From an uncultured Pelagibacteraceae bacterium (lineage in GTDB: Bacteria > Pseudomonadota > Alphaproteobacteria > Pelagibacterales > Pelagibacteraceae): DNA of 53,806 nucleotides. The notes below the pieces were generated by a model, which saw only the letters and a list, made by a program, of their open reading frames with translations, made no database searches and was not told the origin of the DNA. The stretch's first letter is position 1, and every line of letters starts with the position of its first letter. Below, piece after piece: positions 37,528 through 40,769 of this stretch. The stretch is taken from positions 145,548 through 199,353 of the forward strand of contig CACJNE010000001.1 in assembly GCA_902594675.1 (NCBI GenBank), given 5' to 3'. Position numbers and translations under genes: made by a program.

Positions 37528-38563
37528 AATACTGATATTAAAAAACGATAGGGTAGGTGATCTTTTTCATTCATTAAAAGGTATTTATTCAATTATTGAG
37601 TCCAATTTAAATAACAATAAATGTGACATTGAAATTGTTTTGTCTAATTATTCAAAAAATATGAGTTTTTTATTTAAAACCAAAAATGTAAAAACTAGTG
37701 TATTAAATTATAATCTAAGCATATTTGATAAATTTTATTTAATTAAAAAATTACTATTAAATAATTATGATAAAATTTATATTCTATCACCAAAGAATAT
37801 TTATTTTTATTTACCCTTTTTTACCAAATCAAAATTTTATGCAATTACAGTCAAAGATTTTAAAACAGAAAGACCCTATAATTTTTTAAAAAATAAACTA
37901 TATAAATATTATGTCAATGATAGAACTAATAAAAAACTTGGTGATAGTATCTCAAATTTAATAGAAAAACTTTGTAATGAACAATCTTTATCAATTTCAA
38001 AATTTCCAAATTATATAAACAAACATGTTTCTAATTCATTAAGAAAATATATTGATAATTTTAAATGTGATTTTATTTATGTTCATTATAAGCATTCCCT
38101 ATTTTCTAAAAACGGTTGGTCTTTAGACTCTTTTACTGATTTATTAAATAAAATTTCTCAAACCAAAATACACGATAATGGTAACAAATATTTATATCCA
38201 AAAATATTTCTAAGTTCTGATTTTGGAAATAATGATTATAATAATTATTTTCTTAAAAGATTTTCTTATATTAATTTTGATACTGATGAGTCTAAATTCA
38301 TTAATTCGAATATAACTTATCTACATAATATTAAAATCAATGATTTATTTGAAATAATAGCGAATGCAAGACATACAATTTCACCCCATGGAACCATGAC
38401 AGTTATGGCTAGTTATTTAAATGTAAAAGTTATAGATATTTTTGATGTTACAATTTCTAAAAATTCATTTCGAGAATTCAAACCAAAAAATAAAAATTAT
38501 AATTTTCTTATATTGAAAAATTGTAGTCATAAAATTAAAAAAAAAATTATTAATTTTTTATAA
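37520..38563 (+). CDS. Glycosyltransferase family 9-like (second heptosyltransferase homologue)
   Basis: 347 aa from the ATG at 37520 (a TTG one codon earlier is not needed). ILILKNDRVGDLFHSLKGI is the GT9 opening and ANARHTISPHGTMTVMASYLNVKVIDIF is the C-domain donor site (residues 282-309). It is as AT-rich and lysine/asparagine-rich as its neighbours. The gene ends 6 bases inside the convergent integrase gene. Confidence 0.75.
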   Translation: MSKILILKNDRVGDLFHSLKGIYSIIESNLNNNKCDIEIVLSNYSKNMSFLFKTKNVKTSVLNYNLSIFDKFYLIKKLLLNNYDKIYILSPKNIYFYLPFFTKSKFYAITVKDFKTERPYNFLKNKLYKYYVNDRTNKKLGDSISNLIEKLCNEQSLSISKFPNYINKHVSNSLRKYIDNFKCDFIYVHYKHSLFSKNGWSLDSFTDLLNKISQTKIHDNGNKYLYPKIFLSSDFGNNDYNNYFLKRFSYINFDTDESKFINSNITYLHNIKINDLFEIIANARHTISPHGTMTVMASYLNVKVIDIFDVTISKNSFREFKPKNKNYNFLILKNCSHKIKKKIINFL

Positions 38564-39475
38564 TTTAATATTATTTAAAGCATTATTTTTAAACAAATTT
38601 GCTTCTTGAATATATCTTCTCACCATTTGTGTTGTTTTATGACCTGTCATAGCCATGATATTACGCTCTTCAGCCCCAGAATCAGCAGCTGATGTAGCAA
38701 ATCCGGACCTTAGACTATGGCCTGAATATTTATTAGGATTTAATCCTGCTAATGTTGCATATTTTTTTATAATTAAAGAAACCAATTTGTCAGAGATATC
38801 AAAAACTTTACCGCCTGTAATATTTCTGTATTTAATCCAATCTTTGAGCTTTGTTACAGGACAGTATTCTAAATTGTTAAAGTAGGGGATTGCCTTAATG
38901 CTCCCTTCACCCATTTGATCGGTTTTTGAGCTTTTAATGAATATTTTAAGCCCTTCTGAAACAAATTCAACATCGTCAAATTCTATATTAACAAGTTCAG
39001 ATCTTCTAAAACCTCCAGCAAATCCAAGTAATATCAATGATTTATTTCTTTTTTTTTTTAATTCATTCTCTTCATACTCATTTATCACTTTAATTAATAA
39101 TTTTAAATCATTGATTAATATGGGTTTTTTTGCAGTTTGCTTAGATCCCTTTAATCTTTTTATACCTAATAAATTTTCCATTATTATAGGATGTTTCGAG
39201 TCCAAATAATGTCCCTTTATTTTATGAATAACTTTAATTGAGGCAATTCTCCTTTTTAAAGTGCTAAATTTAGAGTATTTAGATAAATGAGTTATATATA
39301 TGGATAAAATTTTTGGTTCAGTAGGTAAATATTCAAGCCCGTTTTTAATACAAAACAGTGAAAAATCTTTAAAGTCTGACTCATAAGCTTTTATAGTATT
39401 AATTGCTTTTGAATTCTTTAAGTTTTTAACTGTTTCTAATTCCAGTTTTTTTATGTCAGTAATTAAATCACTCAT
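38558..39475 (-). CDS. Tyrosine recombinase / site-specific integrase
   Basis: 305 aa. An N-terminal SAM-like core-binding domain (about residues 1-105) is followed by a catalytic domain with the full set: Arg in GFRRSELVNIEFDDV, Lys in FIKSSKTDQMGEG, HxxR in HSLRSGFATSA, His in GHKTTQMVRRYIQ with the nucleophile Tyr. No truncation is seen, so it may be active. Composition is a little less AT-rich than the sugar genes. It closes the island, and its own promoter and inverted repeat lie just upstream. It is closer to phage/island integrases than to XerC/D because of its short arm and stand-alone position, though a XerC-like housekeeping role cannot be excluded. Confidence 0.92.
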   Translation of the reverse strand: MSDLITDIKKLELETVKNLKNSKAINTIKAYESDFKDFSLFCIKNGLEYLPTEPKILSIYITHLSKYSKFSTLKRRIASIKVIHKIKGHYLDSKHPIIMENLLGIKRLKGSKQTAKKPILINDLKLLIKVINEYEENELKKKRNKSLILLGFAGGFRRSELVNIEFDDVEFVSEGLKIFIKSSKTDQMGEGSIKAIPYFNNLEYCPVTKLKDWIKYRNITGGKVFDISDKLVSLIIKKYATLAGLNPNKYSGHSLRSGFATSAADSGAEERNIMAMTGHKTTQMVRRYIQEANLFKNNALNNIKL

Positions 39476-39728: not shown

Positions 39729-40202
39729 TTGGTAGATATAATTAGTATTTTAGTTGCTGGAATATTTTCATGCATAATTCTTGATATTCTGGGTTATTTA
39801 CTCAAATTGATGGGTATTCCAGAGCCTTCTTGGGGGATTGTAGGTAGATGGACTTATTATATGCTTAAAAATGCTACTTTTTATAACCCAAATATCGCAC
39901 AAATGCCCAATTTTAGGTATGAGGTCTTGCTTGGTTGGATTTTTCATTATTATGTATCGATTTGTTGGGCTGTAATCTATTATTTTTGTTTTTTAATGGT
40001 AGGTCTAAAAATGACATATTTTTCAGGCTTTATATTTGGAGCTCTTACAACACTAGCTCCATTACTGATATTTCTACCATTTACAGGACAGGGCGTGTTT
40101 GCAAATAAGACTAGAATACCCATTAAAACATCAATTATGTTTTTAATCAGACACTCAATTTACGGAATTGCAATGTATGAGGGTTTTAGATGGTTTACTT
40201 AA
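39729..40202 (+). CDS. DUF2938-like membrane protein
   Basis: 157 aa with four hydrophobic segments. IISILVAGIFSCIILDILGY is the first helix; GIPEPSWGIVGRWTYYM follows, then two further helices (VSICWAVIYYFCFLMVG and GFIFGALTTLAPLLIFLPF) and GQGVFANKTRIP before the last. This fits the DUF2938 family of unknown function as I remember it. The start is TTG with GAGG about 4 bases upstream, the first codon after the small membrane gene; no ATG lies early enough. Confidence 0.68.
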   Translation: MVDIISILVAGIFSCIILDILGYLLKLMGIPEPSWGIVGRWTYYMLKNATFYNPNIAQMPNFRYEVLLGWIFHYYVSICWAVIYYFCFLMVGLKMTYFSGFIFGALTTLAPLLIFLPFTGQGVFANKTRIPIKTSIMFLIRHSIYGIAMYEGFRWFT

Positions 40203-40309
40203 AGCTTTAGATTAAGTTATCCCCGATATTCGTCCCTGTTAAAAACTCAGTAAATTCAACGATAAAGTGATACATACAACCTACTCTATCTGATATTGTT
40301 TAAAATGAA

Positions 40310-40493
40310 TTAAGAGGCAACTCTTAACTGACCAGCTGGGGAAAAACCGAGAGGTTCAAGCCCAGAGGGCAGAAAGCTCTGCAGAGTAGCGCTAAAATTG
40401 CAGGGTGGAAGGCATGGCGGTAGCGCATACAACGACGTGCCAAAAACTACTGTTCTTTGTACCTGAAAAGGTGCAAGGAAACAGGGTTTTTTT
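40310..40493 (+). ncRNA. Unassigned structured RNA of about 185 nt with an intrinsic terminator
   Basis: The 40328-40441 stretch is 57% G+C (65 of 114 by hand count) inside DNA near 25-30%, a sign of selected RNA structure. Helices I can draw: TTAAGAG/CTCTTAA around GCAA (40310-40327); CTGGG/CCCAG (40336-40340 with 40361-40365) holding ACC-GAGA-GGT; GCAGA/TCTGC (40369-40382); GGCATG/CGTGCC (40411-40416 with 40436-40441) holding GCG-GTAG-CGC; and the terminator hairpin at 40450-40484. Two loops are GNRA type and TAGCGC occurs twice. I compared it with tmRNA, RNase P RNA, SRP RNA, 6S RNA and the common riboswitch cores I know and found no match. It could be a free small RNA or a leader controlling the MGMT-type gene. 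Confidence 0.7.
40450..40493 (+). terminator. Rho-independent terminator abutting the MGMT-type gene start
   Basis: A 15-bp stem (40450-40464 with 40469-40484, one bulged A at 40481) closes on a GAAA tetraloop and is followed by GG and seven T (40487-40493). The ATG at 40494 follows the last T directly. The stem also contains AAGGA and CAGGG, the only purine-rich stretches that could serve as a ribosome binding site, so folding would stop both transcription and translation of the next gene. Confidence 0.8.
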
Positions 40494-40769
40494 ATGGTTC
40501 TAAAAGGCACTAAATTTCAGATAAAAGTTTGGAAATATTTGATTACTATCCCTAAAGGTGAATTAAGGACCTATTCCCAAGTAGCAAAGGCTATAAATAA
40601 ACCAAAATCAGTGAGAGCTGTGGCAAATGCAGTAGGAAAGAACCCATATGCCCCAAAAATACCTTGTCACCGGGTAATCAGGTCGGACGGTTCATTGGGC
40701 GGCTATTCAGGTAAAGGTGGGATAAATACTAAGAGAAAATTACTCAAATCTGAGGGTATTTTGCTCTAA
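40494..40769 (+). CDS. MGMT-type protein: 6-O-alkylguanine-DNA alkyltransferase DNA-binding domain
   Basis: 91 aa, only the DNA-binding/active-site domain of Ogt/Ada-C. It has the helix FQIKVWKYLITIPKGELRTYSQVA, SVRAVANAVGKNPYAPKI, the catalytic site PCHRV with C58, then DGSLGGYSGKG. The Cys is kept, so it is not an alkyltransferase-like (ATL) protein, which has Trp there. The N-terminal domain of full-length MGMT is missing, as in other small members. Full repair activity is plausible but not assured. The start touches the U-tract of the terminator, so expression probably needs read-through or an internal promoter. Confidence 0.88.
   Translation: MVLKGTKFQIKVWKYLITIPKGELRTYSQVAKAINKPKSVRAVANAVGKNPYAPKIPCHRVIRSDGSLGGYSGKGGINTKRKLLKSEGILL

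Follow-up and report, generated by a model that had tools for sequence, protein, structure and literature searches.

SAR11 bacteria live in the ocean in very large numbers. The described RNA closest to the one reported here is IMES-2 (RF02035), a catalogued SAR11 family whose Rfam model spans 141 positions. Terminator-type riboswitches place a structured RNA, a terminator hairpin and a start codon in series; 6S RNA (RF00013) is a free RNA shaped as a single long rod with a central bubble; and bacterial SRP RNA and alpha tmRNA are free structured RNAs found in the same genomes as IMES-2. The literature searched, with most subscription papers outside it, gave no function for IMES-2 and no mention of RF02035; the one paper there that names IMES-2, on a squid genome, describes it in the available part as possible environmental contamination, and the available part of PMC2864571 contains no occurrence of IMES. 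Here, we describe an RNA locus in a 53,806-nucleotide stretch of DNA from an uncultured Pelagibacteraceae bacterium (the window, meaning the whole stretch analysed). We find that the RNA is a copy of IMES-2, with all 141 model positions matched and the same four hairpins. Relative to the RF02035 model, we add a terminator, upstream blocks and a covarying loop–loop helix. In contrast to terminator-type riboswitches, IMES-2 lacks a conserved antiterminator, is followed by variable or convergent genes and has a promoter-like block of its own. It would share with 6S RNA the state of a free RNA of similar length, but its fold differs, it shows no match to the 6S model and its presence is facultative.

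Identity and extent of the RNA

A scan with cmscan against Rfam 15 matched window positions 40303–40443 (+) to RF02035 with 162.9 bits, against a gathering score of 54.7 (E 4.9e-43, model positions 1–141 of 141). No further Rfam family exceeded its own cut-off at this locus, and RF00013 gave no match there even at E 10. An earlier note on this DNA, made from the letters, had called the RNA unassigned and had tied that description in advance to there being no strong Rfam match; the search returned one. The note had picked out the right stretch, but its start at 40310 falls seven bases after the first position of the Rfam model. The complete unit measures roughly 190 nt and comprises the IMES-2 core and a terminator (40450–40493) that lies beyond the model (Table 1).

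The segment 40300–40493 folds with a minimum free energy of −73.5 kcal/mol (z = −6.38), and none of 200 shuffles was equally stable, which bears out the description of the stretch as strongly structured. The GNRA loops noted earlier are likewise present, as GCAA in hairpin 1 and GAGA in hairpin 2. The G+C content of 40310–40493 had been overestimated, at 57%; we measured 48.4%, which still places this stretch first among the 5,363 stretches of 184 nt sampled in the window.

Table 1 Features of the IMES-2 locus in the window
Feature	Position	Strand	Basis
Tyrosine-recombinase gene, about 0.8 kb upstream of IMES-2	38558–39475	−	PF00589
DUF2938 gene directly upstream of the cassette	39729–40202	+	PF11158
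Whole IMES-2 cassette, DUF2938 stop codon to MGMT ATG	40203–40493	+	Comparison with G078 (L199)
Tandem of DnaA-box-like 9-mers TTATCCCCG, ATATTCGTC; second box degraded here	40217–40234	+	Homologue comparison
Conserved promoter-like block TTCAACGATAAAGTGATAC	40255–40273	+	AGTGAT conservation; putative promoter role
IMES-2 RNA core, four hairpins	40303–40443	+	RF02035 covariance-model match
Hairpin 3 loop strand of the loop–loop (kissing) helix, GCGCUA	40389–40394	+	Covariation with 40421–40426
Hairpin 4 loop strand of the loop–loop helix, UAGCGC	40421–40426	+	Covariation with 40389–40394
Predicted intrinsic terminator: hairpin of 15 bp and a single bulged A, followed by GG and U7	40450–40493	+	Fold and homologue covariation
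MGMT-domain gene, 91 aa, PCHR motif; neighbour, outside the RNA	40494–40769	+	PF01035, E 2.1e-33

Terminator, upstream blocks and loop–loop helix

The predicted terminator has arms at 40450–40464 and 40469–40484 and its U7 tract at 40487–40493. The earlier note had read it as a 15-bp hairpin followed by U7, with the ATG of the MGMT-domain gene immediately past the last T, and both points hold, the hairpin carrying one bulged A and GG preceding the U7. Across 79 MGMT-type homologues, 90.0% of the cells of this helix are paired and seven pairs have changed on both sides, and 0/500 shuffles reach either measure; the two innermost pairs are open in 51 and 48 of the 79 rows. Because a consensus scan listed neither a terminator nor a sigma-70 promoter at the window locus, the terminator and the promoter rest on folding and comparison.

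Upstream of the RNA, a block around AAAGTGATAC is conserved, with AGTGAT occurring in 117 of the 128 distinct regions compared (a count taken without a shuffle control), and a −10-like TGATAT lies at about 40291–40296. A search of 18 genomes for the promoter block TCAACNANAAAGTGATA with up to one mismatch found two exact copies, both at IMES-2; these lie in two of the four IMES-2 genomes searched, and none was present in the 14 genomes without IMES-2. Behind the seven one-mismatch copies found elsewhere we saw, by eye, no IMES-2-like RNA, and the backward control of the search gave 12 hits.

Further upstream lies a tandem of 9-mers that we liken to DnaA boxes. Two adjacent TTATNCACA elements within four mismatches occur in 103 of 118 homologue regions, compared with a mean of 1.3 and a maximum of 4 in shuffles that ignore common descent. 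The window copy is poor, with six mismatches. A strict tandem pattern occurred three times in 12 genomes, each time at IMES-2; ten of these genomes carry IMES-2, so that only 3/10 have the strict tandem, and the backward control pattern gave five hits. The tandem prompted us to consider an origin of replication (oriC) at IMES-2, a candidate that we rejected: in cumulative skew computed for two complete genomes, each sampled in 20 stretches of 20 kb, IMES-2 lies near the maximum in one (G015) and at neither extreme in the other (G001), which gives no support. As far as sequence comparison goes, the upstream and terminator features look like those of a separate transcription unit.

Within the RNA, all helices taken together have 94.3% of cells paired in 86 distinct rows, and 32 of 45 pairs carry changes on both sides, values that 0/500 shuffles reach, with the qualifications that the shuffles ignore the relatedness of the rows and that the alignment had been fitted to the nested part of the tested structure. 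When the partners are slid, 33–42% of cells pair. Covariation among homologues, which the earlier note had proposed to look for, is thus present.

Six positions in the loop of hairpin 3 are complementary to six in the loop of hairpin 4; the resulting helix is an addition relative to the nested Rfam model, which cannot show such a contact. In this loop–loop helix, 96.0% of cells are paired, and three of the six pairs, or 11 cells, have changed on both sides; none of the 500 shuffles matches the paired cells, the changed cells or the covariation score. Less favourably, the number of changed pairs is matched by 11/500 shuffles and the number of pair types by 111/500. Sliding the partners by one to three columns leaves only 4–56% of cells paired; at +1, 14 cells have changed on both sides, compared with 11 in the proposed register, yet only 27.0% are paired. 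On a tree of 116 rows built without these columns, and with three partial copies left out, pairs 1–3 show at least 5, 2 and 3 state changes, the count of 5 at the first pair taking in one-sided and unpaired states. Two rows (L035 and L036) were left out of model R1 and included again in R2.

Each loop is also palindromic, and the rows that lose the palindrome are informative: where GCAC faces GUGC (three rows) or UCGC faces GCGA (two rows), the within-loop palindrome is gone and the complementarity between the loops is kept, which disfavours self-pairing of each loop as the cause of conservation. These rows do not speak against pairing of the loops between two molecules. The outer pair is open in 14 of the 84 rows with letters, and it is lost in the variant AUCGCU facing UAGCGC, which counts against a strict six-pair helix. 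Comparative evidence thus supports pairing of the hairpin 3 loop with the hairpin 4 loop, a contact that would lock the folded RNA into a compact core.

Distribution and genomic setting

Within the window's order, we found IMES-2 in 107 of 247 genomes, once in each; it is facultative there, with a match in 75 of the 149 genomes that are at least 90% complete. A class-wide sample gave 3 positive genomes among 385, all three of the window's family; in both searches the filters were stricter, and weak matches were lost. A pattern scan of GTDB contigs, checked by covariance model, yielded at least 120 loci. Among the pattern matches listed, 113 of 120 were confirmed as IMES-2, three of them partial (L058, L088 and L101), and all 113 are SAR11 (Pelagibacter-type) records by title. 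The seven misses among those listed have other titles, two from SAR116 and one each from Smithellaceae, Negativicutes, Leptolyngbyaceae, Burkholderiales and Nitrospinaceae, none of them confirmed. IMES-2 was unmatched in 50,697 phage records, and five pattern matches in viral contigs gave no confirmation by the covariance model. Hidden copies in IMES-2-negative genomes were considered and rejected: a second model gave weak hits of at most 18.6 bits in 10 of 20 genomes; those inspected were coding or other unrelated sequence, several of them at one recurrent gene boundary that we take to be rpoA–rplQ.

The MGMT-domain gene lies directly downstream in 83 of 134 IMES-2 places, 43–62 nt past the model end, or in 79 of 129 once genomes present twice are counted once (L038/L133, L045/L122, L049/L071, L051/L166 and L052/L163). 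Some flanks are short, and the gene that lies upstream in the window was detected at only 12 of the 134 places. The frequent MGMT gene, despite so rare an upstream gene, could reflect a functional link in cis in the MGMT clade. For 33 of the 51 places without MGMT just downstream, we inspected the first ORF of 70 aa or more on the downstream side: it runs on the opposite strand in 28 and on the same strand in three (L088, L110 and L143; in L110 a small ORF is followed by MGMT), and none was seen in two. By sequence, IMES-2 sits in three different gene neighbourhoods. The upstream gene in the opposite-strand loci is, we assume, mostly tRNA-thiolase-like (mnmA), and that in G001 and G007 presumably nuclease-like.

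MGMT is also present in 18 of 20 genomes without an IMES-2 match, and in 17 of these 18 loci, read by eye with L197 left out, no IMES-2-like insert lies directly before it. One genome, G078 (L199), provides a natural empty site: its DUF2938 and MGMT genes abut with no RNA between them, so the 0.29-kb cassette at 40203–40493 is absent there as a unit.

The window has a tyrosine-recombinase gene about 0.8 kb before IMES-2 (Table 1), and L087 and L113 have lookalikes of it (by eye) 0.3–0.35 kb upstream of their IMES-2 copies. In the partial copy L088 (263–394), IMES-2 breaks off at about position 90, where the sequence passes into an integrase-like gene. We considered an att (integration) site at this junction and rejected it; a chimera of single-cell amplification is likelier, because the join enters the inside of the recombinase frame (by eye), a gene that in the window is nearby but opposite.

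Genomes were also searched for other RNAs and for Hfq. Profile searches, from which divergent genes may escape, found the Hfq family PF17209 in 0/20 genomes, with 5 of 14 controls positive, including E. coli, B. subtilis and Caulobacter; Rfam 6S RNA was found in 0/30 genomes, again with the proviso that divergent ones may escape (controls positive in 5/14). SRP RNA lies at other loci in 16 of 20 genomes at E ≤0.001, nine of them above the cut-off, and tmRNA at other loci in all 20.

Models of IMES-2 function

We put a probability of about 85% on the reading that the window RNA is a member of IMES-2 with a predicted promoter and terminator of its own, that it would be released as a free transcript about 190 nt long, and that it likely acts in trans instead of switching the repair gene. 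According to this model, IMES-2 would be transcribed from its own promoter and end at its own terminator. With Hfq undetected and its two most conserved loops occupied by one another, the RNA is probably a folded, protein-binding (RNP-type) regulator rather than an Hfq-assisted antisense RNA.

A base-pairing antisense RNA whose open loops or linkers bind mRNAs without Hfq is rather unlikely. The terminator, the promoter-like block and a conserved purine-rich linker, GCAGAAAG, retained in the divergent copies of G001 and G007, favour it; the most conserved loops, however, covary with each other, and Hfq went undetected in the 20 genomes searched.

The second rival, which we judge improbable, is a cis-acting riboswitch or attenuator, in which IMES-2 would sense a signal and control termination before the MGMT start codon. 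The geometry of the MGMT-type loci argues for it: from the U-tract to the MGMT start there are 0–10 nt in 80 of the 81 loci measured, only 1/81 has a Shine–Dalgarno-like 4-mer in between, and MGMT comes next at 83 of the 134 places. After the IMES-2 terminator, the MGMT gene is essentially leaderless. Such a switch would use an alternative pairing, and the earlier note had proposed one between TACAA (40428) and TTGTA (40457) and between AGTAG (40385) and CTACT (40447). All four motifs lie where it placed them, but the pairing finds no compensation in the 79 homologues, whereas the terminator shows seven compensated pairs. In the proposed antiterminator, 79.1% of cells are paired, a value equalled by 354/500 shuffles, no cell has changed on both sides, and five of the ten pairs break in at least 20 homologues without a single compensatory change. 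The genomic setting also speaks against control of the repair gene, with a convergent downstream gene in two other neighbourhoods (the next ORF being on the opposite strand at 28 of the 33 non-MGMT loci inspected) and MGMT without IMES-2 in relatives (17 loci read). Of the two options left by the earlier note, the evidence therefore supports a free small RNA and gives no support to riboswitch-like control of the repair gene.

A diverged 6S RNA binding RNA polymerase is the least probable candidate, very improbable in our estimate: its similar length, the lack of an Rfam 6S hit in the 30 genomes searched and the abundance in seawater that the original papers reportedly describe for IMES-type RNAs would suit it, but four separate hairpins with a loop–loop contact are unlike the 6S rod, RF00013 is unmatched even at E 10, only 75/149 genomes at least 90% complete have IMES-2, and the IMES-2-negative genomes tested are likewise without a 6S hit.

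Two further features of the locus may bear on regulation. Its promoter may be activated from the upstream DnaA-box-like tandem, in which case the level of IMES-2 would follow growth or replication. Where MGMT abuts the terminator, the gene may be expressed through partial read-through, which would be the simplest route to its expression. Combining these steps, we offer as a long shot a DnaA-gated, loop-locked regulatory RNA, belonging to SAR11 lineages in which neither Hfq nor 6S RNA is detectable, that reports replication or growth state via a protein partner and whose leaky terminator sets, in one large clade, the level of the O6-methylguanine repair protein. Were this to hold, alkylation repair would be coupled to the replication cycle.

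With a loop–loop helix, a defined transcription unit and a natural empty site, the IMES-2 motif becomes open to probing, deletion and comparison. The results for Hfq (0/20 genomes) and 6S RNA (0/30) further imply that a free regulatory RNA in SAR11 probably works in an unfamiliar way.
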